Below, in pieces: positions 502-64,000 of a stretch of 64,000 nucleotides of DNA. Position 1 is the first letter of the stretch. Every line of letters begins with the position of its first letter. Source of the stretch: Periplaneta americana (taxonomy: Eukaryota; Arthropoda; Insecta; Blattodea; Blattidae); assembly GCF_040183065.1 (NCBI RefSeq), contig NC_091127.1, forward strand, positions 20,742,891-20,806,890, given 5' to 3'. The notes under the pieces were generated by a model. The model saw nothing but the letters and a program-made list of their open reading frames with translations, was not told where the DNA came from and made no database searches. Position numbers and translations under genes: made by a program.

Positions 502-2100
<1,599 letters not shown>

Positions 2101-29007: not shown

Positions 29008-29214
29008 AAGCTTTCAGGAATAACTCCCTGTAAAGTTAATTTGAATAATTTCGAGGGAAAAATTGTTCCGGGGTCGGGTATCGAACCCGGGACCTTTGGT
29101 TAAACGTACCAACGCTCTCCCACTGAGCTACCCGGGAACTCTACCCGACACCGATCCAATTTTTCCCTCTATATCCACAGACCTCAAAGTGGGCTGACAA
29201 CCGTCAAGCAACCA
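29008..29214 (-). mobile_element. tRNA-derived SINE family C, left (inverted) unit
   Basis: On the minus strand a leader GACGGTTGTCAGCCCACTTT is followed by a near-complete tRNA-like cloverleaf (CGGGTAGCTCAGTGGGAGAG A box; GGGTTCGATACCC B box, about 29085-29140). The tail AACAATTTTTCCCTCGAAAT runs to 29008. It forms the left half of a head-to-head pair with the copy at 29304-29549. Confidence 0.85.
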
Positions 29215-29217
29215 ACA

Positions 29218-29303
29218 TTCGATACCCGGCCCCGGAACAATTTTTCCCTCGAAATTATTCAAATTAACTTTACAGGGAGTTATTCCTGAAAGCTTAATTT
29301 GCA
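29218..29303 (+). repeat. SINE C tail fragment forming an 86-bp palindrome with 29008-29105
   Basis: TTCGATACCCGGCCCCGGAA through AAGCTTAATTTGC is a near-exact reverse complement of the opposite unit's tail. The two SINE units can therefore fold into a long stem with a ~110-bp loop. Confidence 0.8.
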
Positions 29304-29549
29304 TAATATACGTCACTGTACGTAACAGAAAACCACAATTTAAAGTCACACAGAGTTAGTGTGCACTCAAATGTTGGTTGCTTGACGGTTGTCAGCCCAC
29401 TTTGAGGTCTGTGGATATAGAGGGAAAAATTGGATCGGTGTCGGATAGAGTTCCCGGGTAGCTCAGTGGGAGAGCGTTGGTACGTTTAACCAAAGGTCCC
29501 GGGTTCGATACCCGGCCCCGCAACAATTTTTCCCTCGAAATTATTCAAG
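29304..29549 (+). mobile_element. tRNA-derived SINE family C, right (direct) unit
   Basis: Order on the plus strand: ATAATATACGTCACTG leader, GGTTGCTTGACGGTTGTCAG, then tRNA-like GGGTAGCTCAGTGGGAGAGC and GGGTTCGATACCC boxes (about 29455-29520), then the tail. The same arrangement occurs at 53024-53494. The stem TTGGT/ACCAA around a 7-nt loop is conserved, but there is no full acceptor stem, so it is a SINE and not a tRNA gene. Confidence 0.85.
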
Positions 29550-35220: not shown

Positions 35221-35483
35221 ATGGCAATCAGGGGCGGATGCAAGGGGGGGATTAAGGGGATATATCCCCTCCCGAAATTTTGAGAAAAATACGAAACAAG
35301 AAACAAAAATAATATTAATTTTAATTCGTGAATGTACATAGGAATTAGAGAGTTTTCCACTTAAATTCTCTTTGCTAAAGTGTTAAATTCCAAGAACTGC
35401 AGGGAGACAAACACAGCGTTCTTACTTCAAGACAGAGAGTCATGAAGAGTATTTTAGGCTTTTAATTTTCCTTCTCTTCTTAG

Positions 35484-36010
35484 ACTATTTCATTGGTCAG
35501 CTCAAGGACAGGTTTTTAAATCATAAAGGAATCCTAAAATCCATACAAACTTTTCTGTCTAAAGACATAGTGCGAGCATCAGATGAATATTTAGGAACTG
35601 CTGTTGAGGCTATAGTAAATCAGTGGCCCAATGATGTTGATGCATCACCAGAGTCTTTCTTCAATGAATTGAAGATGTGGAGAAGAAATTTCCTTCATCA
35701 GAAAAATCTTCACCTAATACGTACTGACTTTATATCATCTTTGAACAGATGCAATGAAATTATTTTTCCCTGCACTCACAGGGCGCTGAAACTTTTCTAC
35801 ACATTGCCTGTAACTACAGCAACACCAGAACGGTCGTTCTCAACATTGCGGTGTTTGAAGACTTACTTGAGGAGCACGATGGGAGCAGACAGATTAAATG
35901 GACTGGCCTTGATGTATAGCCTATACATAAAAATGTAGAAGTAAAAGCTCATGAAGTACTGGATGAAATGTCTGAAAAGCCTCGTCACCTTCTTCTGCAA
36001 ATGTCATTCT
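35484..36010 (+). pseudogene. hAT transposase C-terminal fragment (ZMYM1-like)
   Basis: The frame runs from about 35484 (DYFIGQLKDRFLNHKGILKS) through WPNDVDASPESFFNELKMW to the dimerisation block LPVTTATPERSFSTLRCLK and RSTMGADRLNGLALM, stopping at 35936. Homology continues in a different frame (PIHKNVEVKAHEVLDEMSEK), so a one-base indel near 35915 broke the last ~30 residues. A CTTCTCTTCTTAG acceptor-like site precedes the fragment. Confidence 0.82.
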
Positions 36011-45266: not shown

Positions 45267-45482
45267 TTATGAGCGTGGTGGGGTCTGTGACAGGGGTAGC
45301 TGTGTGAGAGCAGACGAGCTGAGGCGCGAGGTACGGGGTTCGATCTCAAGAGACATTCTGTACAGCTCGTCATCGTCCAGCAACAGTGACGGGTCCAGCA
45401 GGTAGTTGGTCACCTTGGTGATCAGGTCGATCTTGTATGGGGTCTGCTGAAAGTGTCGTATTTCTCGGATCACGTGAGCGAT
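45267..45482 (-). CDS. RasGRF terminal coding exon (exon 7 in window)
   Basis: The acceptor TTTGCAG|ATC is at 45483-45489. The exon encodes [20 protein letters not shown] through [20 protein letters not shown] and a Ser/Leu-rich tail ending TPPRS, then TAA (45267-45269). This is the end of the CDC25 fold plus a short C-terminal extension. No clear polyadenylation signal was identified downstream; a LINE relic begins about 190 bp away. Confidence 0.9.
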
Positions 45483-48400
45483 CTGCAAACAGACGAAATT
45501 CCAATTCAATATTCATAACAAAGTGTTTGCTTGAGGACCTTATATCATTTGGATGCATTACATCTAAGATAAAAATAACACAGATAAATAGCAGTTTCTC
45601 GAGAAAGAGACTGAGGTTCAATCCCTGAGAGATCGAAAGGGTTTGTGATGAGATAGACCGGAAGTTTAGGCATTATGTATCATTAAAATAGGCAGGCAAA
45701 AAGGCATCATAAATAGGTAGCTAAAATACGCAGGCAAAAAAGCATTATAAATAGCTAAAATACGCAATAAAAGGCAATTACAAAAACCTTGCTCTAGTCC
45801 CACAGCCTTGCACTTTCCACAAAGGGATTTCGGCAGCAAGAAAAGATTTACATAAGTCGAATGCAAATTGAGATTTTCGACTCTATATTGCAATTACTAT
45901 TGGAAGCAAAGAAAGCTTCTTCCCAGTAACCTTGGAAAGTGCATTTTTGTGTTTGGTTGTACTGATAATACCAGTTATATCATATTATGTTGCGATATGA
46001 AATATTTCTTTTCGTAGTTCACTGACTCCTCACATATTTTGCATGTAAGTACTTTACCGTCAGTACAAAATACGTCGAATCCAAAAATATTAACGTAACT
46101 TTGCAATTTACCGCGTAAAGGAACACTGAATTTCGGCATCTTGCTGCTATAGTCGCGACGCTGTTATTTCCGGCATGACTCCGCCTCTTTGCTTACGTCT
46201 TAGAAAGTGAAGGCTCTATAAAATCTAGTTAGGTAGTATCGTTCGCCATTTTTGCTCTTTCGTTGCCGAGCTACCGGACGAGGGATCTATTTGCCACATC
46301 GTTAAACATTATCATGTCGTAGCTCCTATGATATTAAATCAAACGCACTGTAATTCAGCAAATAACTGAGCGGCAAATAACGTCCTCGTGTGCATTCTGC
46401 GAACGCCAACGAAAGAGCCAAAATGGCGGACGATTATATTAAGTATTTATCGAGCCTTCTTTATCTTCATCAGCGAATCACAAGACGCACACGTTTAAAT
46501 GTAGCCGACCTGCAACGTGATTGGCTGTCAGAAATAAGAGCGACAGGACTATAGCTACAACAACGTCGCAATGAAATCTGAAAGAAAAATAACTGTTAAA
46601 AATAACGTTAGACCTGCACTCAATGTTGCCTTGTCAAATAAACACAAGTGATAATTAAAACGCTTACTGTTATACATTTTTGCACGGCAGCACTCATTGT
46701 TGCAAGGAGAATATGAACTGACTGAAAGACACTAATATACATTCGGTGAAGTCACTTTCATTGTAGTGGTTATAGAAATAAATTAAAATATACCTGTAGC
46801 AATTTTAATAATAAATTAATAAATAATAGATAAATAATCAAATAAAGGAAAAAAAAAACATTTATTTTGTAAATTAGGCATTTATATTTAAAAAGGCAGA
46901 AAAGGGCAACATAAAACTGTGACGTTTCAATCACAAAGGTATAATTCGTACAGATTTACTTTCAAAATGAAGATAGATTTAACACATTTAAAGAGGCATT
47001 CTGCCAAAGTTCTGGTCTCTGGTGATGAGTGAAGCAAACTGATAAAGTTTTCTTCGATTTGTTGCTATTTCTATCATATAAAATCTATTAAAATTTTAAA
47101 ACTTTTGTGAAATTGTCTCTGGCATCTATGAACTGCACATCCAGACATAAACGCAATGCTTCTCCCTGAAGTTATACACTTCATAGATCACTTGCTGATC
47201 ATTTTGCAGAAGAACTTTTGTATGACCCCTTCCATAGATGAGTTTACATAAAGTTTATCTGGTACTGATTAGTACCGGTACCATAAAGAGTAGTCAACCA
47301 CCCCCCCCCAAAAAAAAAAAACAGGTTATAAGCTAATTACATTTTTTTCCTTTCCTTTATTTACCGAAATTTTAAATAAATGTGTGTTAATTTAAGCTAG
47401 TCAGTAGTTGACAGTTTTACCTGTTACCATAAGAATGGTCGTAAAATTCGTAAACACTTAAGAAGTGACGCATTCCAAACTTGGACAAACCATACCTTGC
47501 GTGGTAAAGGGGTTCCGGTTATTGTTTATAGTGATCTCCCCAAGGCTAACTCATGGGTAAGCAATCGAAAGGGCCTATCTTCCTCAGAATGGACCAATGC
47601 TTTAAAAATGTCAAGCAATATTTCGGCGGTTCGCGCAATACCGGGCAGAACTCTTAAGCAAAACCCGCTGCCGTCATCCAGACTGTAGCGAGCTTGAAAC
47701 ACTTGGACACGTGCTTGGACAATGCCCTAAAGACGAGCTGTATGACATGTTTTGGCGACATCGTTAAAAACTTTAAATTGGGAGATTCATGAGGAAGTAC
47801 ATTGTGTATCATCAGATGGTTCTTTCAGACGGGCAGACATTATTGCTATTAACGGACGCTTAAAACAGGCTCTTGTTCTTGACCCTACTATCCGTTTCGA
47901 AAGAATCCTAAATCAGGCCACCGAAGTTGATATTGAGAAGAAGTCTATATATGAACCTTGTCTGCCGTATCTTTCTCAAAAGTACAACGTCCCTCTTAAA
48001 CAATGGTCCGTCATTGGTTTGCTGTTTGGCAGTAGAGGTTCAGTCACAAAATTCACATGGAATTATCTTAAGAAACTTCACATTCCTTTTGATTATGTAA
48101 TGTCTATTCTTATAAATATTATCAAGGATTCTCTTCAAATATTACATCATCATCTCTATTTCAATTAATCCACTTATATTTGCTTTCAACAGTTAACTTT
48201 CTTTTTTCTTTAATATATCACATCACATTATATTGTACATGTGACCAGCCTCATGGTCTAGTGGTCAGAGCTTCTGGCTATAGTTCATGAGGTCCCGGGT
48301 TCGAGTCCCGGTTAGAGCACAGGAATTTTTCCTTAAAGGGGATTATTCCTGTGTTCGTCAATGGTCTGGAATTTAGGTTAAGTTTAGATTTAAGACCTCT

Positions 48401-51400
48401 CCTGGCACTACATTATCATAATCATAATCATAATCATCCTATCACATCATCGGGGTAATGTAACTCCGCCTTCCAGGCGCCCCAACCTCAGAAGTGGGTT
48501 ACAACTAAGCCACGGCCAGGAGAGAAGACCAGAAATGTCGAAAAGACAACCTGGTGGCATTGGATAAAAAAAATAGAAAACAATTTCGTACTTTGATGGT
48601 GTTATTTCCTGTTTATTCACCTATGGTATACTTGTCTATATTCTTACCTACCATTCTCATCTTGGAGAAGTTGAGCAGCCCGTCATCTGTAAAGTTGGGT
48701 GTGCCTTCCTCTATGAAGGAGAGATCGGTGAGGTACATTCCCAGGTACGGTATGCAAGGAGGGTCACAGCGGTGTAAGGCGTCACGTAAGTTTCGGAAAC
48801 GTCCATCTGATGAAACTATATTCTGCAGCTTCTCGATTGTCTGCTTAGTCTGTAACAAGAGCGTCACATTCTGGACATCATGTGATGTATTGCAAGGGCA
48901 GTGTTCGACAAACAAATCCAAGGTTGAGGAAGAAGGCATGAGTGTGGGGACAGCAGCTTATTAAATATTATCCAATACCAATAAATGACTACTCTCCAGA
49001 CATTAACATTTGATACACAGTGTTCAACACAGAAGCTAAAGAGAATACCAACGATTAAAACCTTTTCGAAATAATACACTTAACTCCTTCCAACAAGTAT
49101 GTATTACTAGATTAAAAATGAAACGTTAATGAAGGAGTGGTACTGGCAAACACTAAATCGTTGGCTTGAAATGTCAAGGTTCTAGCAAAAAAAAAAAAAA
49201 AAACTTATGTGTAAATTAGTGTAACTCTGAAAATATTGAGAGTAGGACAAATGTTTATATGACATTTTTTGCTCAGAATGTCTTCGGAAATAGGCTTCGT
49301 GAGGGACGGTAAATCCTCGTGAATCACCCTGTATAGCCAGAAATAAATAAATGCAATCAATCTTCTTAATGTATCCAGCTGTCTGCTGACAACATAAAGT
49401 CCATTATAGTCCACTGTAGTCTATTCAGTTGTTGTTTTTCACGAGAAATGAGGGGTATTTTGATCGGTGTTCATTATAGATGCCTGTTGCTAGTAGCCAG
49501 AGTTGGGGTGTAGTCAATATATACTGCAGGGCTGTGTCTTCTGCAACCGGTATTGATGAGTTTAATTTACTTCTTTTGTGGTTTATGGATGGACAGTATA
49601 GAAGAAGGTGTTCCAGATCTTCATCATGATTATTATACCACAGACAAGTAGGATTATCAGAAATGTGAAATCGATGTAGGTACAATTGAGTGACAATGTG
49701 ACCTGTTCTGGCCCTTGTTAAAAATGTTTGAACATGTCTGGGCAAGTTTTTGTACATTTCCAGATCATTTGGTTTCTTTTGTACAGACTGTAAAATTTTT
49801 CCTTTGTCAGAAGAGAGCCAATTGTTGATCCATAGGTTTGTAAAATGAGACTTTACTGAAGTAAAAGCATTGGATAGAGATATCACTTGAAGAGGTCTTG
49901 GTTGCAAATATGTTGCCTGTTTTACAATATTATCGACTTTCTCGTTTCCAGGTATACCACAATGACTAGGTATCCATTGAAATGTTATTTCCTTTTGGAG
50001 TTCTTTTAGTTTACTTAGTCGTTTCTGAATTGGAATAATTCTATGTGCATATAGGTGTGGTACATATTTAATTATATTAAATATAGCCACTTTGGAGTCG
50101 GTAAGTATGCAAATAGATTTTTCAGAAATTTGAGTAACACACTGAAGAGCAGCATCAACAGCTAGCAATTTAGTGTCAAGACTGGAGGAGGATGAACATG
50201 GTATGAAATAACTTTCTTGATATTTTGGAATATAATACCCTGCTCCTGATATCCCATTATTAGGATTTAGAGATCCATCTGTATAAATTTGAAGGTGATC
50301 CTTATATGTACTGCAGAGGACCATTACGTACAATTACCAACAAACATGTGCATTTAGTATCCACTCTCATAAGAGACTGCTTGTACCATAAGAGTATCAT
50401 TACATATAATATACAGTATATATATATCCCATTATTTAATGCTCCCCCTCCACTCCAAATGTCTGCCAAAGCCAAGCTAACCTTCCACTACAGCTCCACC
50501 GTCCTCACGTTTCACAGATAATCCGTTCATCCAGTAGAAAAAGGATAACCATTTGCTGAGATGACCACTGAGTGGAGCTGGCCGTTTTCGGTAGCTTTTA
50601 CTTGTTTATTTTAAAAATACATCTAAACCACTTAATTGTATTAAGACAAACTACATACTGTTTTGGATACTTTCTCCCAGGTCTTCTTCAGCCTGAACAC
50701 GGAACTGTTCGTGAAGGCAGCACACACTTGCAGCACGCCATTGAAGTTGTGTAGACATCTCGAGATGTCGGCTACTGCAGCCCACTTTTCAATGGCAGCA
50801 ATTCGAGAGGCCATATTGGAGCGACGAACTATTTCAGAGACTACTAACTGAGAAACCTGTGAAGACAGAAACACGTTTACAGTTAATCACTCTAGTTCCT
50901 GCAAGCTTTCTCTCAAGGTAATGCGTAACTGAGTTTTTTGCAATTTCTAATTTCTCATTGCAGCTTTCTGAAAAATTTACATCAGTTACATATATTGCTA
51001 AAATACACGTGAGCATTTTTTTTCTTCAAATTTTTATGTTGAAAAAGTGCTAAGAAAAAATATATATTTTTAGTAGAGGTTTGTCTGGGCCTTACATAAA
51101 GATAATAAATTTCCTGAAAGTTTAAAATGAAGCTAAGATATCCTATAATGAAATGGCGTAGTGCTTTTTTACCTGGTTAATATGCTTCATTAGTAAAAAA
51201 GATTAAACTTTTTTTTTTCAACTTTGTACCCGACATGAAAAATCACAGCTTTCTTAATAATAGTCATATGATATGATATATGATATGATAAGGTATGATA
51301 TGATATGATATGATATATGATATGGTATGATATGATATATGATATGATATATGATATGATAAGGTATGATATGATATGATATGATATATGACATGATATA

Positions 51401-54400
51401 TGATATGGTATGATATGATATGATATATGATATGGTATGATATGATATATGATATGATATGATATGATATATGATATGATATATGATATGATATATGATA
51501 TGATATGATATGATGATATGATATGATATATGATATGATATATGATATGGTATGATATGATATATGATATGATATGATATATGATATGGTATGATATGAT
51601 ATATGATATGATAAGGTATGATATGATATATGATATGATATGATATGATATGATATGATATGATATATGATATGATATGATGATATGATATGATATATGA
51701 TATGATATGATATGATATGATATATGATATGATATGATGATATGATATGATATATGATATGATATATGATATGGTATGATATGATATATGATATGATATG
51801 ATATATGATATGGTATGATATGATATATGATATGATAAGGTATGATATGATATATGATATGATATGATATGATATATGATATGATATATGATATGGTATG
51901 ATATGATATATGATATGATATGATATGATATATGATATGATATATGATATGATAAGGTATGATATGATATGATATGATGATATGATATGATATATGATAT
52001 GATATATGATATAAGGTATGATATGATATGATATATGATATGATATGATATGATATATGATATGATATGATATGATATATGATATGATACGATATGATGA
52101 TATGATATGATATGATATATTTATTTCTACAGTTCTTATTTAGTAATGGGTCGCCACCACATCTCTGTATTCGTGCTCCCCATCACTTTCTAATTACAAT
52201 AACATATACATGTGCAGTCATCTAATAATAGTCATATGTATACATGAATGCAACATTTCATGCACAGACCTGTAGTGTGCAATGTTTCATTACTCTAGGT
52301 CAGTGATTCCCAAACTTTTTGAAGGTGCGACCCAAACTGGTAGGGTACTGAACTTCATTCGAAAAATACAAATTTCTGTAAAATCGAAAACAATGAAAGT
52401 TTAACTCAAAATTAGTGGAAACCACCCAAAGAACGACCAAAACATATAGTGCAATAACGACATGAAATATTACATGGTCATTTCTAGTAGCCTACTTTGC
52501 TGATATCTTCGAACATTTAAACACATTGAATAGTACCATTGCAAGCCAAGATATTAACATAATAACAGCCAGGGATAAAACCAAAGGATTTATACAGAAA
52601 CTTGATTTCTGGTCTATGTCACTTGACAAGAAGGAATGTGATGCATTAAAGAACTCCTGAAAAATTTAGCTATGTGTGATATGACAAATTCAGAATTAGT
52701 TAAATTAAGTTTGCACAATTCTAAACAACAGATTTCAAATATTTTCCGAAAGACACTCAAAACATTACAATAGTCACAGATGGATAATAAATTCATTTTT
52801 AGACAGCTGCGTTCAACTAGCTGAAATTTAAAAAAAGGAAAAAAAAAAAAAAAAATGTACGTACCTGTTCAGTTATAACCATGTCGAGGGGAAGCTTCCG
52901 CCTCTGACAATTTCTATAAACAATTTTGTTTATATGGCTATTGCGTGAGGACGTAAATTAACTGTCAAAGAAACGATAACTTACAGAAGCATTTGCAATT
53001 GTAATATTGTAAAATTTTGACTTGCAAATCAAGATTTCAGGTATAACTCCCTGTAAAGTTGATTTGAATAATTTCGAGGGAAAAATTGTTCCGGAGCCGG
53101 GTATCGAACCCGGGACCTTTGGTTTAACATACCAACGCTCTACCACTGAGCTACCCGGGAACTCTAACCGACACTGATCCAATTTTTCCCTCTATATCCA
53201 CAGACCTCAAAGTGGGCTGACAGGGAGTTATACTTGAAATCTTGATTTGCATAATACACGTCACTGTTCGTTAACAGAAAACCACAATTTAAGTCACACA
53301 GAGTTAGTGTGCACTCGAAGTCGGTTGCTTGACGGTTGTCAGCCCACTTTGAGGTCTGTGGATATAGAGGGAAAAATTGGATCGGTGTCGGTTAGAGTTC
53401 CTGGGTAGCTCAGTGGTAGAGCATTGGTACGTTAAACCAAAGGTCCCGGGTTCGATACCCGGCTCCGGAACAATTTTTCCCTCGAAATTATTCAAATTTT
53501 GACTTGTTCCACATCTTAAAGCTTCATTGCTCATGTAAGATCTATGGAATAAAATGAATGAATGAATGAATGAATGAACACAAACGGAGAACTATTCCTT
53601 ACTGTCATCCATCTCTTTTGCCTAGTCATATAGGAAAACGTCATATTCTTGGTAAAATAGCGACAGCCTAAAGTTTGTGTTAACATGAAACTAGTAAATT
53701 TATGAAGTTGGACGACTTTCTTTTCGTTCAGTGGTTACAGATGAAAATAACTTGTCACTGGTAACCATAAACTTACTTCATTGAAACGTTTCGTCATCAG
53801 GATAATATGAGGAGCCTTTGTAGCCTTGTCCGTCTTCATCCACGCCTGTCCGAGGAACTCTCTGCAATAAACAAACATTAACAACATTAATTTACTGTTT
53901 TCAGAGCAATTTGTCCTCCAATTATGAAGAACAGAATCTCCAATGTATAATGTGGATACAATTTATTACTTGGTATCAAGTGGATTAAAAAACTTACAGG
54001 CAACCAGGCATTGTTTCGTATTAAAAAAGAGTTATTTATATTAACATCATAAAACATTTCATTTTGACAAATTAATAAATAATAATTAGACCTACAGATA
54101 TTCGTCAATAGTGTTCATTATGATCTGATTAAAAGCTGTAACATATATAGATTGACAAATCGAACAGAAACTCTGACCAAGTTACTATGTGAGCGCTGGC
54201 TGTCTTGGGGAGGAGCAAGTGAGAAAGCACGGGGGGAAGGGAGAGAGCACTATGCACTATGTACTTGCAGGTCCACTCACAGTTTCTCAAACCTGCTAAC
54301 AAAAGCATTAAAAGGTTGACTAGTTGCCTGCAATGCTAGCATAATGGAACCTTCCTAGCCGACAGTCGAGGCAAAAATGAAGAATCCGTTATTGTGGTAA

Positions 54401-57400
54401 TACTGGAGAGTGGTTCTTCTATTGGTCGCGATGCCCACACACACCCTCTCAGATATTTACGTGGTGATTGGTGACTGAATGACGAGGAGCGAGGGAGAAA
54501 AAAGAAAGAAAGAGAGACATTCCAGAAGTTGGCGTGTTTTACGGGGTTTCACTTTAAGTTGTCAAACTATGCCATTATAATAGCAGATAGGAATCAAATC
54601 AAATGTAAATATGCCTTATTTTAGATTAAATAAGACCCATAATAATTAGGCCTACCGGTGCTTGTATCTTGCACCTAAATTTTATAATATGTTGCCTGAA
54701 AATGTAAAACATTTATATAGTTAAGTTTTAAAACTAGAGTATGAGTACAGTATACATATGGTTGGTAAAGCATCCTTTTTATACAATTCATGAATATTAA
54801 AATTTTAATTCATGTAATATTAATATGTAATTTACTTTTTAACAATTTACTATGTAGGGCCTGCTGTTTTTTAAATCTTAGCCTTGTCAATTGTCTGTAT
54901 AGCTCTTAAAGAAAAATATTTATAAATGCTACCGCTACTTCTAAATGGCATTCTAGTTTAAGATAACAGTACTGTATACTTTCAGAACTTCACTCCATGA
55001 AGATGCCGTCAGTATAAAATTCCTAACAGTCAAAACTTCACGAGATGGCTGAAACACTAAAAAAACTTTAAGTTCTAACTTTTTTTTTTTTTTTTAGATA
55101 CTTACTCACTAGATATAGACACAAATATCTGATGATCAACATAGGTCATCTGTTCTGCTATCTCGAGTGCTGACAATGTTTCTATGTTTTCCTTACTCGG
55201 AGTCTGCAAACACATAAAATATAATGCTAAGTAAGAAATATTTTCAGTGTTTTTCTGTACGGTAACAAACTTTATTATAATATGTGACATTCTCTGAGAT
55301 TACAGGTTCCTGAAGATGGAACTAACCTAAGAATTTAGAAGAAAGTTCATTTGAATTATTTACATTCCTGTAATAATAATAATAATAATGATATTGGAAC
55401 TTCCAGAAACTTTTGTCCAGTACCATACAGTAATCGTTTTGATGTGTGGTTACTGTGCTGACAATGCGATAGAGGTCCAGAAGTTCCATCTCGACTGACG
55501 TCAAGAGTCCCATAAGGGTTCAAGTAACACCCGTAAGTCATTTACAGTATATTCAGCATCATTCAAATCTAGTCTGCTATCCTCGAATTCATTCTTTGAA
55601 CTTATTATGGAGATGATAAAGGATAGAATTTTGCGTTGCCAATCAGGAAGCTTCTTTTATAAGTAAACATCAAACATGTTAACTGAGATTAACAGCACCT
55701 GCCTGTCAATTTTCTACCAACGGTCAAGAGTGTGTTTCTTAATTGAGACCCGGAATCCAAGAGGGGCCCAACTCCATTTTATATCGAAATCGAGTTAGAT
55801 ACACGATTGCATTGATTTCGTTACTGGGCATCTGTATACCAAAAATAGAGGCCCAACTCCAACATTTAACCATGTTAAAGTGATGTGAAATATCTATCGG
55901 AACCAAAGAGAGACCCAACTCCAGGCACTTGGCCTCTCTTGTACTCCATTAGGCAGTTGCGGCATTTTGTCGCTAGATGACAGCAGGAGCGTTCTACATC
56001 AGTTTTTTGAAAATGGCTTCAGCTTCAGACAACGAATCATCTGCTGATAGCATAAGCATAAGATAAGAATTTCGTGATTACAAGAATCACTTCCTTCAGT
56101 TTTTCAAAAAGACAGCAACAAAAAATGGAGAAAAATTCAAAATATCTGAGTATAAAGTTTTTACCTACAGTAAAACTCACGAGAATGAGATTGCAGTTTC
56201 ACGAACAATGTCAAATATTGTGTTTGATTACTTCAGATTAATTAAGCCAAATTCTAAGCCGGATCTTCCCAATGTACCTTTGTACACAAAACCCTGTCCA
56301 GTGAAGGCTGCCAAAATTCGAGACCTAAACACAATCAAAAATCATCTAAGACAGGACGTAGTCTCTTACACAGAATCATTGCAGTCAGCAGAAAACTTGT
56401 CCGATTCTGTGGTGATTAACATGTTAATGTGTATTGTGTAACAAATAAAAGTATTGTAAATCAAAGTGATTACTTGTCATTTACATTATTGTTTGTAAAT
56501 GCCACACATTAACCTTCAAACCACTCAATATGGCTGCAAACTTGTATGTAAAAGCTCCGGAATCCAAGAGGGGCCCAATATTTAATCACTTTAAAAAATT
56601 TATTTCTCATGCAAAATAATTAGTAGAAGCTTGTTGTCATGGTTATGAAAAGATGTAATGGAGATGTACTTACGAGAAAAAAATATAGTTAGTCAGAGGC
56701 ATTTTGTAGCAACAGCAAACATTTTTTCAGTTTCCCAAAAGTTTGATGTAATGGACTTCGGCCCTTCTTGGCTTCCGGGTCTCAATTGAGGCCTTGAAAT
56801 ATTATATTGATATGCTATGTACAATTTCAGGTTACGTATCAATTGAGGCAAGTGACTTGAGAACTCCAAGCAGTTCAAACCATGACCAGTACATGACACT
56901 GGACAATAATCCACAGATTTTATAGTATCGGTATTTCTAAAAACTCTGTTCCTTATGTTTGGCACTTAGCACCTTTGTTATTTAAAGGTCTCAATTGTGA
57001 AAGAATAGAAAGGGCCACTTTCTACTACTACAATCATTGTATCTTGAAATTGTGTGAACCTCATGGCTTTTCTCTGAAGTAATTTTTTGTGTTAAACAAA
57101 AGAACAGTCGAATAATTATTATATTAAAATAATTGATTAAATGGCGATCTTACTCGTGTTAATTGTGTAAGCATGTGCGGCTTACAGCTGTTTCGGTGCT
57201 TCTTCACGCCATCCTCAGAGCCTACTAGATCTCGGCGTCATCTCGAACTTTGCTGCCTGTTGTGTGGGTGTGTTCGATTGTTGAAAAGTGTTGAAATGTG
57301 GTGTCAAATAGTGTGTGTGTTCTGAAATTGATCTGTGTGTTGAGAATTTGATCAGGGTGTGTTTTAGTGTGTTTGTATATTTCATATTGTTCTAGTGTGT

Positions 57401-60400
57401 TGAGTTTTTGGCTTTTGGGTTGTATGTGTAGGATTTCCATGTCTGTATTTATGTTATTGTATGTGTGGTTAGCATTAGTTATGTGTTCGGCATATGTAGA
57501 TGTATTGTGTCCTCTGGTTATTGCTTTAATGTGTTCTTTGTATGCCGAACACATAACTAATGCTAACCACACATACAATAACATAAATACAGACATGGAA
57601 GTCCTACACACACAACCCAAAAACTCAACACATTAGAACAATAAGAAATATACAGACACACTAAAACACACCCTGATCAAATTCTCAACTCACAGATCAA
57701 TTTCAGAACACACACACTATTTGACACCACTTTTCAATAATCGAACGCACCCACACAACAGGCAGAAAAGTTCGAGATGATGCCGAGATCTAGTAGGCTC
57801 TGAGGATGGTGTGAAGAAGCACCGAAACAGCTGTAAGCCGCACATGCTTACACAATTAACACGAGTAAGATCGCCATTTAAGGGGAGAGGATGGTATTTT
57901 TTGGTGAAAAATGAGTAAATTTTCAGAAAACAAAAAAATTCTTTAAAATACTCTTTGATATGTGTGGAATGCATAGCATAACATTTTGTGGGTATTTGTG
58001 CCCTTATCGGATGTTGAGTCGCCATTTTTAAACTTCCTCCTTTATGGATTTTCAAATCACTCGCACACTTTTATTGTTGTTTCCGGTAAATTAAATTTAA
58101 AAAAAAAAAAAAAAAATTATTTAAAATACCCTTTGATATGTGTGGAATGCATTGCATAACATTTTGTGGGTATTTGTGCCCTTATCGGATGTTGAGAAGT
58201 CATTTTTAAACTTCCTGCGCTATGGATTTTTAAATCACACGCCCTCTTTTATCGGTTTCCAGTAACTTCATTTTTTTTGCTACATTGCCAGACAAAAATG
58301 GATATAATATCTGAACTATTAAAGATACATGCATGAAATTTAGAACACACATTCTTTAGACTATTAGGATACTTTTCTCTGTAACAGAATTTTGTTAATT
58401 GATTTCATTTTAAAAATACGTCCGTTTCTTTGCAAGAAAGGAAATCAGAAAATTGTTATTAAATTTTAATTGTTTATTTTACATATGTAGGGACTAATAT
58501 CACAATTCTGTTACAGACAGTTTGTAAAAATTGATTTTGCAAATACATTGCAAAACACTGTTTGAATCTATCTTTAAAAACGGTTTAGATATATCGGTTT
58601 TAGTACAATCCTGCATTGGGTATATTTTTTTCAAATTTGGGCCGCCAAATAATTTTTTTCAAAATATTTTTATTTGGTTGAGTTTCAACAGCTCTCTACA
58701 TACAAAAAATTAATATTTTACAGGAAATAGGAAAAAAGTTAAAAAAAAATACCATCCTCTCCCCTTAATCAATTATTTATATTCAAGTGTTAAAAGTAGT
58801 GTACAAAAGGTTCAACATGTACCGGTATTATATTTATTTATCTTCCTGACATCAGGAATAATGAATTTCTCCTTCCAGGTACATCAACCTCATAATTCGA
58901 TCACTATATTCTTTCACTTTGTACTGACCATTGGGGGAGCCAGCAGGAGGTCTAGGTCCACCTTACTGCTCTCTGGCTCTTCCTTCGTGATGAGGCGAAG
59001 TAGTTGTGATGCTGCCTTGTGCTCTGCAGGCAGCAGGTTCGGACTATATATTATATCGTCAAGGAACTCAATTGTTAAATTCTTCAGTCGCTGATCCATT
59101 TCAAAGTCCTACGAAACAAAAAAAGTTATAACCGACTGTGAAATCAGCCATCTTTTGTCATGCATGTGGTAAAGAAATGCAGCCTATACTAACAATTCCC
59201 AAATTATACCTAGGAAACAGATTGCTAGTTCTAAAAAGAGAGATTTAGGACTTTATAAAATTCAATTTAGGACTTTTAGAAGTTTATGGGATAAAATTAA
59301 CAATTAATAATTTTAATATGTTACGAGAAAATTCACAAACTATTAGGGAAAACATGGGAATTTTACTTGATACAAGTAAAGAGATAGGTTTGGAAGTAAA
59401 TTCAGAAAAGACAAAGTAGGTTATATTATTATGTCTCGTGACCAGAACATAGTACGAAATGGAAATATAAAAATTCGAAATTTATCCTTTGAAAAGGTGG
59501 AAAAATTAAAGTACCAGTACTTTGGAGCAACAGTAACAAATATAAATGATACTCGAGAGGAAATTGAATGCAGAATAAATACGGGAAATGCCTATTATTA
59601 TTCGGTTGAGAAGCTTTTATCATCCAGTCTGCTATCGAAAAAACAGAAAGTTAGACTGTATAAAACAGTTATCGGTACATTACCAGTTATTCTGTATGGT
59701 TGTGAAACTTGGACTCTCACTTTGAGAGAGAATAAGATGCTTAGGGAAATTTTTGGAGCTAAGAGGAATGAATTTACAGGAGAATGGAGAAAGTTACACA
59801 ACTCAGAACTGCACACATTGTATTCTTCAGCCGACGTAATTAGGATTTACCAGACTTGAGATAGGCATGGCATGTAGCACGTATGGGCGAATCCAGAAAT
59901 GCATATAAAGTGTTAGTTGGGAGGCCAGAGGGGGGAGAAAAGGACCTTTGGGGAGACTGAGACGTAGATGGGAGGATAATATTAAAATGGATTTGAGGGA
60001 CATGGGATATGATGGTAGGGACTGGATTAACTTGCTCAGGAGAGGGACTGACAGTGGGGTTATGTGAGGGCGGCAATGAATCTCCGGGTTCTCTGAAAGC
60101 CACTTGTAAGTAGGTAAGAATATTCCATTTTAGGAGGAATTCATGTACAAAGAACCGTGCTGCTGAATTCAACACTCAAAACCTGTCAATGAAAGAGACT
60201 GATTGCTGATTGGTCAGTTTCAATTCACATAATGGGGGTGTATTGACGCAAAAACTAATTTGTATGCTGTCGTGTAAGGTTACCATCCATCCGGAAAAAG
60301 GAGAACATGTCCTCTTTTTAATCATTTTATCCTGTTCCGGCAGGCATTAAAAAAAAAAAAAATTTAAATGTCCGGCATTTCGCATTTCAACTAGAATTAA

Positions 60401-62654
60401 TATGAATATTGAATAATGTGCGATATTATGCATAGAATATCTAAACAAATGGTGAAAACCTATGAAAGAATTTAACTGCTTTCAATGGTTGAAGCTGGAG
60501 CACATAAAAAAACATAAAATATGATGACCTATTGACATGCATTGAATTCTTACACTTTAAAAATGTCATTGTTCATGATTCTAAGCTATTTTATCAATTT
60601 TATTCTGGAATGTACAAAGATATGCCAATCAAGTTAATTTTGACAAAGATTTAAGTTTAGATAAACAATGGTGCAAATTCCTCAATTCCAATAGTTCTGC
60701 GAGCACTGAAACTTTCTCAGAACTCTTAAAAATATGTCGATTCTATTTATTTATCCCAAGTCACAATGGAAGTGCTGAGAAAGTATTTTTCTAATATCTG
60801 CTCAATGGACAAAAGAACAAAATCGCATGCTAACGGAGACAGTCAGAGGTATCATCATGGTGAAATAGAATTTCAAGGACATGTCCTGTGAACAGTTCAT
60901 AGTTATTTGTTACAAGATAGAAATTTGTCTCTTCAGGCTCCACCGATAAGTAGGGTACAGATGTAATACTGATCCAGTAACTAGTGAGAAAACTAAGGTG
61001 AGCCATTGTTTTTATCTTTAATTTTGTTCACACCAATTTTTGAAAAGTCCTCCTTTTTTCAGCAATGTCCTCTTATTTTAGATTCCATGTCCTCCTATAG
61101 AATTTCTTCTCATGGTAACCCTACTCTCGCCTAACCTGAACAACCTACCACAAGTGTTTTGATAAACAGTTATGCCCGATTAAGTAAATTACAAAATTTT
61201 AAAGTAAGCATGAAAAAAGATCTTTCCAAAAAATGAGTACCGGTAACCACGAGAAAATACACTTCCTCGTTGGAAGGATGATGTATTTTAAAGAGTAAAT
61301 ACATAGTGATTCATGAAGACTGTCATACTCTAGGCTCTGATTCCAACATCATTGTGAAGAAAAAAATTTTACATATACTGTACACGTTTTAGTTTGAATA
61401 GTTTCGAATAAAATGACGATTCTTCCTTCTGTAACACGCACCCTTGTGAAGTTCTCTCTCTCTGGACATCTGGAACTGTGTGTGTTACAGTACACTTGGG
61501 CAACTTCATGTATTGCTGCAGAAGGTGAGGTCTTTGAAAACTAGGTTTAACACAGATTTTTCAGGTGAATAATAGTGTGAATGTTCTTTAATAAATTTTT
61601 ATGCTCGACCATGCCGAAATGTAGTAATTATACACCTGGTAGCAGTCCTTTAATGCATGTCATTAAAGTACACCTATTCATTAAAGTTCAGGTTTTCGAT
61701 TATTCTCGGATATGCAATCGAAAGACAACTAGGGAAACGTCACGGAGACTGGAAATACAATACTGTCGCAGAAGGTTGTGTTCTGTTACTATAATAATTA
61801 GCGTTAATTGTAAATAATATTCAAGTAAATTCAATTTGTCATCTCGTTTTTCAATTCTAAATCAATTTCCAGGTTGTATCAAAATTAGTTCATGTTATTC
61901 TGTAGATTATAACAAGGTCAATGACATTATTGTTCCTCAGAAAAAATCAATACTTTCGCGTCTGCGCACAACTCACAATTTACGAGCGATGCACAAGGTC
62001 ACTTCCACTCTTCAGTTAGATACGAATAAAATGAATACTTCTGAATAATTTCAAGTTAGAAATATGGTCGAGCATAAAAAGTCGTATGAAACTTGCCTAT
62101 AATGGTAATTAAGATGCTCGTATGAAAATTATGAAACTTGCTTGCGCTCGTTTCATAAACAAACATACTCGCGTCTTAATTACTATCATTATAGGCTCGT
62201 TGCATAATGTACTATTAATACACTCAGTACCATTCTCGTAAATTATTTAAGTGCTTCATAATTTCCAAGTTTATGTTTAACATTCAGGAGGGTGTATGAT
62301 ATATAAACTTTCTTTATCACAATGATGCCAGAAATCAGATCCTAGAGTATGACACAATCTTCGTGAATCAACCTGTACGTGGATGGCCACTTTATTGGTC
62401 TGAACTGCACCTGTGCGTGCTTGGACACCCAGTGGCGTAGGACATTAAGCACCCGCATGGTGGCTGCAGTGGACATGACTGATTCCTTCCTGCGGTTTCG
62501 GTCCCTGCAGCTGCCCACACGCATGCTGGCGTCTCCCACACTGCACCTTCCGGCAGGGCCCACGACCGGCTTCGTGGGGAGTGTGTGGTCCCGAGGATTG
62601 CTTGAGGCAGACGTAGCAATGGCAAACGCAGCTGCTGCAGTGGAAGTGCTGCTC
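45267..62654 (-). CDS. Ras guanine-nucleotide exchange factor, RasGRF type, C-terminal seven exons
   Basis: Seven exons joined in the order 62654-62411, 59108-58929, 55203-55106, 53861-53777, 50856-50659, 48849-48652 and 45482-45267 give a continuous 405-residue reading frame ending in TAA. RasGRF proteins load GTP onto Ras at membranes in response to calcium or receptor signals. Here the REM domain begins in the first exon and the CDC25 catalytic domain fills exons 3-7. The signatures [52 protein letters not shown] and NFSKMRM match RasGRF more closely than Sos. All junctions keep phase. The PH, IQ and DH exons must lie right of the window, since no further exon is visible in 62655-64000. 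Confidence 0.92.
45900..46139 (-). pseudogene. hAT transposase N-terminal zinc finger fragment
   Basis: From ATG (46139) it reads [48 protein letters not shown], then a stop. In another frame it continues [20 protein letters not shown]. CxxC...H...H is the BED/CGGBP1-like zinc finger also seen in the transposase at 502-1992. Only the N-terminal ~80 residues remain. Confidence 0.75.
46209..46459. mobile_element. MITE-like inverted repeat, 251 bp
   Basis: Ends GAAGGCTC/GAGCCTTC. The arms stay complementary for about 55 bp (CGTCCGCCATTTTGGCTCTT-type blocks on each side) with ~80 percent match. No coding content. It sits upstream of the zinc-finger ATG of the surrounding hAT relic. Confidence 0.7.
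46920..47405. other. intronic sequence, no feature recognised
   Basis: AT-rich sequence with a C9-A12 run near 47302. Confidence 0.4.
47410..48168 (+). pseudogene. R2-like non-LTR element fragment: CCHC knuckle and endonuclease
   Basis: The plus strand reads [40 protein letters not shown], then (shifted frame) [20 protein letters not shown], the zinc knuckle. The open frame 47752-48168 follows with [40 protein letters not shown] and [19 protein letters not shown], the PD-(D/E)XK-like endonuclease. At least two frameshifts (near 47655 and 47750). Same family as 37321-37860. It sits in a RasGRF intron in antisense orientation. Confidence 0.82.
48241..48575 (+). mobile_element. tRNA-derived SINE, family D
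   Basis: The tRNA-like head CATGGTCTAGTGGTCAGAGC (A box) and CCCGGGTTCGAGTCCCGG (perfect T arm/B box) at 48250-48315 is followed by a ~200-bp body with an (ATAATC)n tract (48415-48437). The 3' end is AACCTGGTGGCATTGGATAA plus an A-run. The acceptor stem does not pair, so it is not a functional tRNA gene. It ends about 77 bp from RasGRF exon 6. Confidence 0.78.
48652..48849 (-). CDS. RasGRF exon 6 in window (CDC25 domain)
   Basis: 198 bp, 66 codons, phase 0 at both ends. Acceptor GTTACAG|ACT, donor ATG|GTAGGTAAG. It encodes [40 protein letters not shown] and [12 protein letters not shown] through NFSKMRM. The PPC.PYLG.YL block lines the Ras-binding face in CDC25 domains. Confidence 0.93.
49203..49331 (-). 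mobile_element. solo end of a Tc1/mariner-like element
   Basis: On the minus strand, TA then CAGGGTGATTCACGAGGATT begins the typical terminus of insect mariner-type elements (…TTACCGTCCCTCACGAAGCC, ACATTCTGAGCAAAAAATGT). The other end is missing and an A-run (49184-49203) follows. Confidence 0.6.
49390..50333 (-). CDS. jockey-type LINE RNase H/C-terminal ORF, 302 aa, uninterrupted
   Basis: This is the 3' part of a non-LTR retrotransposon polyprotein, truncated upstream of the RNase H. RNase H motifs: [20 protein letters not shown] (D), [13 protein letters not shown] (the usual E is K), [12 protein letters not shown] (D) and [20 protein letters not shown] (D). After that come [19 protein letters not shown] and [19 protein letters not shown], the C-terminal zinc-binding pattern. 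The frame is open to the stop at 49425, unusual for a 5'-truncated copy. It lies between RasGRF exons 6 and 5, in the same orientation as the gene. Confidence 0.85.
50659..50856 (-). CDS. RasGRF exon 5 in window (CDC25 domain)
   Basis: 198 bp, phase 0 at both ends. Acceptor CTTCACAG|GTTTCTCAG, donor AAAACA|GTATGTAG. It encodes [60 protein letters not shown] and KVSKT: the core helices of the CDC25 domain, with the invariant IEKW and RL..TW. Confidence 0.93.
51265..52120. repeat. intronic (ATATG)n pentanucleotide array, ~855 bp
   Basis: The unit TGATA/ATATG repeats over 850 bp with regular 7-bp variants (TATATGA), occasional 3-bp insertions (GATGATAT) and scattered GG substitutions (AAGGTATGAT, ATGGTATGAT). 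Internal higher-order order is visible. It lies in the RasGRF intron between exons 5 and 4. Confidence 0.95.
52301..52860 (+). mobile_element. hAT (Charlie-type) element, left end and transposase remnant
   Basis: The left terminus CAGTGATTCCCAAACTTTTT is the typical Charlie-type hAT end. From about 52500 the plus strand reads [40 protein letters not shown] and DKKECDAL in one or two frames, matching the middle of ZBED/GTF2IRD2-like hAT transposases. Stops follow. No right end was recognised. Confidence 0.72.
53024..53220 (-). mobile_element. SINE family C, left (inverted) unit of a second pair
   Basis: Same order as 29008-29214: tail, tRNA-like head (GGTAGCTCAGTGGTAGAGCG on the minus strand, B box GGGTTCGATACCC) and leader. 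The flanking tail sequence differs slightly (GCAAATCAAGATTTCAGGTA). Confidence 0.82.
53221..53494 (+). mobile_element. SINE family C, right (direct) unit of the second pair
   Basis: It starts with a ~30-bp tail fragment (CAGGGAGTTATACTTGAAAT) complementary to the left unit's tail. Then come the leader (ATACACGTCACTG...), GGGTAGCTCAGTGGTAGAGC, GGGTTCGATACCC and the AACAATTTTTCCCTCGAAAT tail. The overall architecture is the same as at 29008-29549. Confidence 0.82.
53495..53579 (+). mobile_element. probable LINE 3' tail with (GAAT)n
   Basis: ACATCTTAAAGCTTCATTGC, ATGTAAGATCTATGGAATAA and then (AATG)n looks like a non-LTR 3' terminus with its simple-repeat tail, fused directly to the SINE C unit. 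Only about 85 bp is present. Confidence 0.45.
53777..53861 (-). CDS. RasGRF exon 4 in window (CDC25 domain)
   Basis: 85 bp. Acceptor TTATTGCAG|A completes a codon split after GA in the previous exon. It encodes [20 protein letters not shown] and LMTKRFNE. Donor GAA|GTAAGTTTA. Small but strongly conserved in sequence and phase. Confidence 0.92.
53870..55100. other. intronic sequence, no feature recognised
   Basis: A moderately G-rich stretch at 54190-54250, otherwise AT-rich. No terminal or tandem repeats were identified. Confidence 0.4.
55106..55203 (-). CDS. RasGRF exon 3 in window (start of CDC25 domain)
   Basis: 98 bp. Acceptor GTGTTTGCAG|ACT, donor TAGTGA|GTAAGTATC. It encodes [20 protein letters not shown] and [19 protein letters not shown]...IF..I marks the first helices of CDC25 domains. 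It enters in phase 0 and leaves after two bases of a codon. Confidence 0.93.
55210..55738. other. intronic sequence, no feature recognised
   Basis: A short (AAT)n run at 55373-55390. ORFs at 55322-55541 have no recognised domain. Confidence 0.4.
55741..56787 (+). mobile_element. unclassified TIR transposon with a small ORF
   Basis: The inverted termini AATTGAGACCCGGAATCCAA and (complement) AATTGAGACCCGGAAGCCAA continue to ~39 bp with ~85 percent identity. AATT at both edges is either the end of the TIR or a 4-bp duplication. The motif GRCCCAACTCCA occurs at least three times near the left end (about 55765, 55850 and 55912), and AAGAGGGGCCCAA recurs at 56567. A near-open ORF (56013-56441) occupies the centre. 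I cannot place the superfamily from the ends alone. Confidence 0.78.
56013..56441 (+). pseudogene. transposon-borne protein of unknown family, one internal stop
   Basis: ATG at 56013 opens [17 protein letters not shown] and meets TAA at 56064. The same frame continues open for 125 codons: [77 protein letters not shown], stop at 56439. The KAAKIRDL segment and the final helices resemble C-terminal pieces of insect transposon proteins, but I cannot name the family. It may be a truncated transposase or an accessory protein. Confidence 0.55.
56790..57135. other. intronic sequence, no feature recognised
   Basis: AT-rich sequence between the unclassified transposon and the Penelope-like palindrome. 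Confidence 0.4.
57138..57880. mobile_element. Penelope-like 3'-end palindrome (~350-bp arms)
   Basis: The left arm 57138-57494 is reverse-complementary to 57541-57880 apart from small indels, with a 46-bp loop. Both arms encode the same Penelope-like C-terminus inward to outward ([43 protein letters not shown]) followed by the flank CTGAGGATGGYGTGAAGAAG and ending TCTTACTCGTG/TAAATGG. It is the same subfamily as 39161-39412 and related to the GIY-YIG copy at 15800-16866. Confidence 0.85.
57882..58764. mobile_element. TTAA-flanked TIR element (piggyBac-like MITE), 883 bp
   Basis: The termini GGGGAGAGGATGGTATTTTT and their exact complement are flanked by TTAA at 57878-57881 and 58765-58768, the target preference of piggyBac-type elements. 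It is inserted exactly into the Penelope-like flank: GCCATTTAA at the left edge continues as AATCAATTATTTATATTCAA at the right, the order seen uninterrupted at 39402-39430. An internal ~178-bp unit is tandemly duplicated (57942-58119 and 58120-58290). No transposase. Confidence 0.9.
57942..58290. repeat. tandem duplication inside the TTAA element
   Basis: The two units share TTTGATATGTGTGGAATGCA, CATAACATTTTGTGGGTATT and TGCCCTTATCGGATGTTGAG with ~90 percent identity and a 178-bp period. Confidence 0.88.
58929..59108 (-). CDS. RasGRF exon 2 in window (REM domain)
   Basis: 180 bp, phase 0 at both ends. Acceptor TTTCGTAG|GACTTTG, donor CCAATG|GTCAGTAC. It encodes [40 protein letters not shown] and [20 protein letters not shown]. 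The REM domain packs against and stabilises the CDC25 helical hairpin; LLP.EHKAA is characteristic of RasGRF. Confidence 0.93.
59315..60119 (+). pseudogene. LINE reverse transcriptase 3' fragment
   Basis: The plus strand reads [30 protein letters not shown], then (open 142 codons from 59431) [55 protein letters not shown] and [20 protein letters not shown]. After a frameshift near 59855, [11 protein letters not shown] and [20 protein letters not shown] follow. It ends GTAAGTAGGTAAG at 60119, a simple-repeat tail. It lies antisense within the RasGRF intron. Confidence 0.83.
60275..61123 (+). mobile_element. hAT relic with TAGGGTTACCAT ends
   Basis: Left TAAGGTTACCAT and right ATGGTAACCCTA (complement TAGGGTTACCAT) form hAT-type ends. 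Both are followed inward by GGACATGTCCTC-type sequence. The C-terminal dimerisation region is read from about 60745 (SICSMDKRT and so on) in decayed frames. The flanking octamers CTGTCGTG and CTCTCGCC match only 5 of 8. Confidence 0.65.
61302..62376. mobile_element. Tc1/mariner-like element with a nested repeat, 1075 bp
   Basis: TA (61300-61301, 62377-62378) flanks terminal inverted repeats of ~60 bp: CATAGTGATTCATGAAGACT...GTCATACTCTAGG and complement CAGGTTGATTCACGAAGATT...GTCATACTCTAGG. No transposase is left. A ~620-bp hairpin-rich repeat (61597-62216) is inserted inside. Its right end is 34 nt from the RasGRF exon 1 donor. Confidence 0.72.
61597..62216 (+). mobile_element. hairpin-rich ~620-bp repeat, copy 1
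   Basis: It begins TTTTATGCTCGACCAT, which recurs inverted at 62064-62079. It ends in a hairpin built of CTATAATGGTAATTAAGA and its complement (about 62098-62196) and TGCATAATGTACTATT. It is nearly identical in order and sequence to 63380-63987. Short ORFs (61581-61817 and 61836-62048) are not conserved as frames between the copies. Confidence 0.8.
62411..62654 (-). CDS. RasGRF exon 1 in window (linker and REM start)
   Basis: 244 bp. Acceptor CTTGTTGTAG|G adds one base to a split codon. It encodes an Ala/Ser-rich linker ([20 protein letters not shown]) and then [16 protein letters not shown], the first helix of the RasGRF REM domain. Donor CAG|GTGCAG is weak (no GTRAGT), but the frame joins exactly to DFEMDQRLK of exon 2. 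GC-rich compared with the surrounding intron. Confidence 0.9.
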
Positions 62655-63379: not shown

Positions 63380-63987
63380 TTTTATGCTCGACCATGCCGA
63401 AATGTAGTAATTATACACCTGGTAGCAGTCCTTTAATGCATGTCATTAAAGTACACCTATTCATTAAAGTTCAGGTTTTCGATTATTCTCGGATATGCAA
63501 TCGAAAGACGAGGGAAACGTAACGAAGGCTGGAAATCCAATACTGTCGCAGAAGGTTATGTTCTGTTACTATAATAATTAGCGTTAATTGTTAATAATAT
63601 TCAAATAAATTCAATTTGTCATCTCGTTTTTCAATTCTAAATCAATTTCCAGGTTATACATTCTCTGCATTATATCAAGGTCAATGACATTATTGTTCCT
63701 CGGAAAAAATCAATACTTTCGCGTCTGCGCACATCTCACAATTCAAGAGCTATGAACAAGGTCACTTCCGATCTTCTGTCAGATACAAATAAAATGTATA
63801 CTTCTGAATAATTTAAAGTTAGAAATATGGTCGAGTATAAAAAGTGGTACCGGTATGAAACTTGCCTATAATGGTAATTAAGACGCTCGTATGAAAATTA
63901 TGAAACGAGCGCAAGCGATCGTTTCATAAACAAACATACTTGCGTCTTAATTACTATCATTATAGGCTCGTTGCATAATGTACTATT
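63380..63987 (+). mobile_element. hairpin-rich ~610-bp repeat, copy 2
   Basis: A direct copy of 61597-62216 at about 93 percent identity, missing ~15 bp (GTATCAAAATTAGTTCATGT region). Inverted TTTTATGCTCGACCAT/ATGGTCGAGTATAAAA lie at 63380-63395 and 63827-63842, and the 3' hairpin (GCGCAAGCGATCGTTTCAT stem) is preserved. This copy is not inside a mariner element. Confidence 0.8.
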
Positions 63988-64000
63988 TTGCTTTTGTTTA

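Follow-up and report, generated by a model that had tools for sequence, protein, structure and literature searches.

Predicted exons of a probably single-copy RasGRF orthologue across repeat-loaded introns in the cockroach Periplaneta americana

The analysed window (64,000 nucleotides; C11:20742891-20806890 of the 3.23-Gb genome) contains seven exons on its minus strand, spanning positions 62654-45267 (Table 1). The original prediction had described these exons, with their lengths, GT/AG sites, matching phases and stop-free frame, and the description was borne out: the lengths are identical to those first read, AG precedes all seven exon starts, GT follows all six internal exon ends, and the joined exons (1,219 bases) are open in one of three frames, with 405 codons leading to TAA and many stops in the other two. 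Weak donors occur at exons 1 (GTGCAG) and 2 (GTCAGT), and across both junctions the protein continues as in RasGRF; the remaining four begin with GTAAGT (twice), GTATGT and GTAGGT. Exon 1, whose translation contains the stretch AAAAFAIAT, requires two bases from a preceding exon. The GC content of the exons is 0.38-0.62, compared with 0.31-0.37 for the introns, which are 3302, 3725, 1244, 2920, 1809 and 3169 bases long (introns 1-6; 16,169 in total).

Table 1. Predicted exons, intron repeats and tRNA-like pairs. Positions are those of the window unless marked as extended (continued to the right of the window).
Feature	Position	Strand	Remarks
Window exon 1	62411-62654	-	244 bp; linker end and last REM part; splice sites, frame, RasGEF_N 70-99
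Window exon 2	58929-59108	-	180 bp; REM end and stretch preceding CDC25
Window exon 3	55106-55203	-	98 bp; CDC25 domain start
Window exon 4	53777-53861	-	85 bp; CDC25 domain
Window exon 5	50659-50856	-	198 bp; CDC25 domain; also genome-wide Pfam RasGEF match
Window exon 6	48652-48849	-	198 bp; CDC25 domain; also genome-wide Pfam RasGEF match
Window exon 7	45267-45482	-	216 bp; CDC25 end, 21-residue tail, TAA at 45267-45269
Chain A exons 1-4	276315-276209, 266423-266276, 235763-235504, 225348-225119 (extended)	-	
Chain A exons 5-8	214463-214270, 208698-208573, 142403-142301, 137924-137798 (extended)	-	
Chain B exons 1-3	118331-118144, 113970-113821, 110696-110494 (extended)	-	
Chain B exons 4-6	104610-104495, 96853-96611, 90204-89747 (extended)	-	linker exons
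Repeat, intron 1	61589-62229		at least 3 loci (3/40 scored), 96-97 percent
Repeat, intron 1	60275-61127		at least 36 loci (36/40 scored), 88-92 percent; none in 333 kb
Remnant, intron 1	59306-60121		11 other loci in 333 kb
Element, perfect 25-bp inverted ends, TTAA flanks, intron 2	57875-58769		at least 28 loci (28/40 scored), 90-95 percent
Long palindromic foldback element, intron 2	57137-57881		six other loci in 333 kb
Element, 41-bp inverted ends (88 percent), intron 2	55738-56789		at least 11 loci (11/40 scored), 94-96 percent, mostly end to end
Foldback, two divergent tRNA-Asn(GTT)-like genes, intron 4	53022-53498		at least 37 loci (37/40 scored)
Repeat, intron 4	52332-52866		at least 2 loci (2/40 scored), 81-84 percent
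GATAT/GATATAT short-period array, not transposon, intron 4	51264-52120		limits by eye
Retrotransposon end, intron 5	49425-50333	-	open frame, Pfam RNase H and zf-RVT
Short repeat, intron 5	49213-49349		three other loci in 333 kb
806-bp repeat, constant ends, intron 6	47437-48242		at least 12 loci (12/40 scored), 92-94 percent
Repeat, intron 6	45661-47028		at least 27 loci (27/40 scored) match all or part
tRNA-like pairs	29065-29524, 53022-53498; 76601-77213, 78805-79116, 285899-286178 (extended)		ARAGORN

The 405-aa protein matched the Pfam RasGEF profile over its full length (positions 1-181 of 181; 205 bits, E = 1e-60). Among 28 PDB matches, the best was the Cdc25 domain of mouse RasGRF1 (2ije; 339 bits, E = 3.2e-100), which was aligned without gaps and is identical at 147 of 233 positions (63 percent); E values of this order exclude a chance match. 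It was followed by SOS1 (at most 147 bits), SOS2 (at most 142), RalGPS1 (104), yeast Cdc25 (102), Epac2 (98) and RasGRP2 (79), which gives RasGRF1 a lead of more than 190 bits over the next RasGEF. The predicted assignment to RasGRF was thus upheld, no different RasGEF family appearing on top. The SOS, RasGRP, RalGPS, Epac and RalGDS-like families were ruled out by PDB score. Similarity to RasGRF is present in each of the seven exons, as judged by tblastn with an approximate human RASGRF1 probe, and exons 5 and 6 account for two of the 22 matches of a whole-genome Pfam RasGEF search. A search of NCBIfam (a prokaryote library) gave no match. Almost certainly, the seven exons form the 3′ end of an orthologue of vertebrate RASGRF1/2 that looks intact and probably exists as a single copy. 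They had been described as the 3′ half of the gene; the 3′ end stands, but the half does not, as the window holds about one third of the protein (405 codons versus about 884 upstream so far).

The search for the upstream part of the gene covered 269.5 kb added to the right of the window (extended coordinates reach 333,500). Local tblastn of the window and the first 199.5 kb rightward with the approximate RASGRF1 probe yielded 16 matches above 30 bits, all on the minus strand and all in protein order; further right, the same probe matched a coiled-coil piece (53.5 bits) and a PH1 piece (39.3 bits). Exact exon edges were fixed by splice site and phase. This analysis revealed 14 additional exons on the same strand, in the order PH1 end, putative coiled coil, IQ, DH, putative PH2, first REM part and linker, which form two chains (A, 8 exons; B, 6 exons), each stop-free when joined. 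The whole model comprises 21 exons, each preceded by AG, with GT following the 20 internal ends, in three joins without an internal stop, and the gene extends from position 45267 to at least 276315, i.e. over at least 231 kb. The exons would be spliced as drawn and would presumably yield a protein.

Three linker exons, in which the gene differs from human RASGRF1, showed no significant match to the RASGRF1 probe, and are supported by codon score or pattern, splice sites and phase. Chain B exon 4 was obtained by a pattern search, and exons 5 and 6 by a codon-score scan, after which their edges were reset by eye. In a control, the scan (trained on the window exons) recovered four of the seven starts, with one wrong donor and one exon shortened. 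Since chain A leaves two bases and the first two bases of chain B complete a codon, the phases call for another exon between the chains; a further exon is missing between chain B, which leaves no bases, and window exon 1, which needs two. Pattern searches for these two exons yielded nothing convincing. A 5,000-base stretch of N lies between chains A and B and may hide the first of them.

The PH, IQ and DH exons that the original prediction suggested looking for to the right of position 64000 were found, on the same strand and in order. Pfam matches above cut-off were obtained for (i) the PH1 end (PH, 31.7 bits, profile 68-103 of 105, i.e. the C-terminal third), (ii) IQ (20.5 bits, just over the cut-off of 20.3) and (iii) DH (RhoGEF, 134 bits on the joined upstream exons). 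A whole-genome Pfam RhoGEF search, independent of the RASGRF1 probe, placed two of its 43 matches on the upstream exons. In the PDB, the DH piece scored highest (81 bits) against BCR and a putative Rho/Rac GEF; since neither RasGRF nor SOS was among the best 50 matches listed, this search confirms the DH domain and not the family. The Pfam PH score for PH2 (15.0 bits) is below the cut-off of 25.1, one neighbouring exon being missing, and the RASGRF1 probe matched on either side (50.4 and 41.6 bits). Besides its similarity to this approximate probe, the putative coiled-coil exon gave weak coiled-coil-type Pfam matches, below cut-off.

For the start of PH1, the best matches listed by local searches reaching extended coordinate 333,500 were weak. 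A whole-genome Pfam PH search returned 18 matches, none of them near the gene; it also missed the PH1 exon in hand and is therefore indecisive on the location of the PH1 start. Beside this exon, a tandem copy of about 300 bp was observed (extended 275178-274892, 90 percent identical to 276280-275977). The duplicated segment 276280-275977 includes the final 72 bases of the PH1 exon together with the donor but not the acceptor, and the copy thus represents a truncated exon duplicate.

The window had been predicted to cover both the REM and the CDC25 domain. This was confirmed for CDC25; of REM, only the end lies in the window, in exons 1-2 (RasGEF_N profile 70-99 of 106; 21.8 bits, below the cut-off of 28.3). 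Profile positions 1-60 were matched about 48 kb upstream, at about 110.6 kb (54.5 bits, above cut-off), and the linker exons lie between the two parts. This distance, together with the one missing exon, would be compatible with the seven exons being a separate short gene (REM end and CDC25) and the upstream domains belonging to another gene. However, the acceptor of window exon 1 is clean and the exon requires two upstream bases, the REM domain is divided across both sides, and order and strand agree with RasGRF throughout; division into two genes is thus very unlikely, and a single RasGRF gene is the preferred reading.

The copy number of this gene was examined by a genome search with the 405-aa protein, in which 26 candidates were scored. 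Seven of the 10 matches are the window exons, and the other three do not exceed 41.5 bits or 45 percent identity. At this sensitivity, one RasGRF gene was seen, which is probably single-copy. Searches of the region up to 333,500 left two expected exons and the beginning of PH1 undetected, the introns are very long and loaded with repeats, and a shortened duplicate of one PH1 exon adjoins the real one, as might be expected of a decayed RasGRF pseudogene retaining a gene-like look. Against such decay, the 21 exons with AG/GT edges give three joins without an internal stop, the CDC25 domain is identical to that of mouse RasGRF1 at 63 percent of positions, the genome search revealed no better copy, and the stretch of N sits in one of the two intervals with a missing exon. 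We consider a pseudogene highly improbable.

The layout and the alignment scores also bear on whether the gene could encode SOS instead of RasGRF. Exons 1-2 alone matched SOS as the sole family in the PDB (at most 23 bits), because the RasGRF1 structure is without REM, and SOS obtained the second-best PDB score for the protein as a whole. SOS proteins have a long C-terminal PR domain. No PR domain of this type follows CDC25 in the cockroach gene, whose stop lies 21 residues past the last residue aligned to RasGRF1. As described in the excerpt of PMC3762125, SOS shares the DH-PH-REM-CDC25 layout, of which DH, REM, CDC25 and a putative PH domain occur in the cockroach gene, but has an N-terminal histone-like fold and the C-terminal PR domain, in contrast to the PH1-type exon, coiled-coil-like exon and IQ motif found here. 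Overall, SOS scores 192 bits below RasGRF1, and the probability that the gene belongs to the SOS family is negligible.

The cockroach gene resembles mammalian RASGRF1 and RASGRF2 in its CDC25 domain and in the order of its IQ, DH, REM, linker and CDC25 parts, with a long linker interrupting REM; with the PH1 end, the putative coiled coil and the putative PH2 included, the order would be PH1-CC-IQ-DH-PH2-REM-linker-CDC25. It differs from the mammalian situation (RasGRF-1 and RasGRF-2, according to the excerpt of PMC3762125) in that one gene copy was seen in the genome. The 21-residue tail of the cockroach protein is a further difference. As far as can be judged from its sequence, this RasGRF orthologue has the usual domain arrangement and is an ordinary gene of a known family.

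The introns had been predicted to contain at least twelve transposon insertions, and exactly twelve separate repeat segments were listed in the six introns (Table 1), with uneven support: eight genome-wide, three by copies within 333 kb and one by Pfam domains. The genome-wide searches covered introns 1, 2 and 6 and, apart from 50857-52120, intron 4. Since only 40 candidates were scored in each (of 27,241 for intron 1, 6,684 for intron 2, 6,732 for intron 4 and 9,613 for intron 6), the locus counts are lower bounds. Intron 3 had no copy elsewhere within 333 kb. All twelve segments lie inside introns; eight of them came from intron-only queries, and this location is therefore uninformative on how exons are avoided.

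Among these segments, the intron 2 element with TTAA flanks is presumably piggyBac-like, and the intron 1 remnant is one we take to be reverse-transcriptase-like, its open frame (59380-59859) having no Pfam match. The retrotransposon end in intron 5, which we assume to be non-LTR, had no other copy in 333 kb. The repeat at 61589-62229 is flanked by inverted repeats (81 percent) at 61307-61376 and 62299-62370. Segments 61597-62216 and 63380-63987 are two copies of one repeat (90 percent identical), which flank exon 1 about 1.2 kb apart. The GATAT array (about 860 bases) is open in three minus-strand frames. Repeats form much of the length of the six introns examined and have probably enlarged the remaining introns too; no sign of any role for them was seen.

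The most unusual thing seen is the occurrence of repeats with tRNA-like genes in divergent pairs. Ten of the 16 ARAGORN calls in 333.5 kb form such head-to-head pairs, of three isotypes (Asn-GTT, Tyr-GTA and Ser-GGA). Both Asn pairs in the window are flanked by inverted repeats, and units of the Asn form recur in tandem every 285-286 bp on C6 near 76.91 Mb. A further tRNA-like stretch, at window positions 48244-48330, contains a ggttcgagtcccgg B-box-like motif and is perhaps a tRNA-derived SINE; it received no ARAGORN call, showed no second copy within 333 kb at the threshold applied and was unmatched by the 40 scored intron 6 loci.

The original prediction saw no other host gene in the window. 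This held for the 10 of the 25 open frames (at least 110 aa) that were spot-checked with Pfam, three of which matched, all to transposon-type domains. Transposase-type frames in the window include one of 532 codons with DUF659 (502-2100, minus strand), a domain that we take to be linked to hAT, and one of 183 codons with a hAT dimerisation domain (35387-35938, plus strand).

RasGRF proteins form a family of membrane- and calmodulin-regulated exchange factors. In the cockroach protein, PH1, the coiled coil and IQ would respond to membrane and Ca2+/calmodulin signals; Rac would be loaded with GTP by DH-PH2, and Ras by REM-CDC25. Ras and Rac exchange and calmodulin binding are thus predicted from sequence, following the RasGRF scheme. 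In the excerpt of PMC3762125, RasGRFs are described as carrying PH1, CC, IQ, DH-PH2 and a REM-CDC25 core, with an IQ motif that binds calmodulin, a DH-PH unit that acts on Rac, and activity towards both Ras and Rac.

Among the entries listed in literature searches (titles and abstract starts), none was dedicated to an insect RasGRF. No new mechanism is implied by the present gene. The locus is firmly anchored by a host gene, for which the partial model comprises 21 exons across at least 231 kb. This is, in addition, a clean case of a conserved signalling gene with exons that have stayed open while about twelve repeat insertions are present in its last six introns (16 kb). To our knowledge, Drosophila, the best-studied relative in the lineage, is without RasGRF. 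It is tentatively suggested, at somewhat less than an even chance, that the cockroach gene may be a single, pre-duplication insect RasGRF, encoding an exchange factor for both Ras and Rac that is gated by calmodulin, in this same lineage. If this is true, a large-genome insect would allow one to ask what role RasGRF had before the vertebrate gene split in two.
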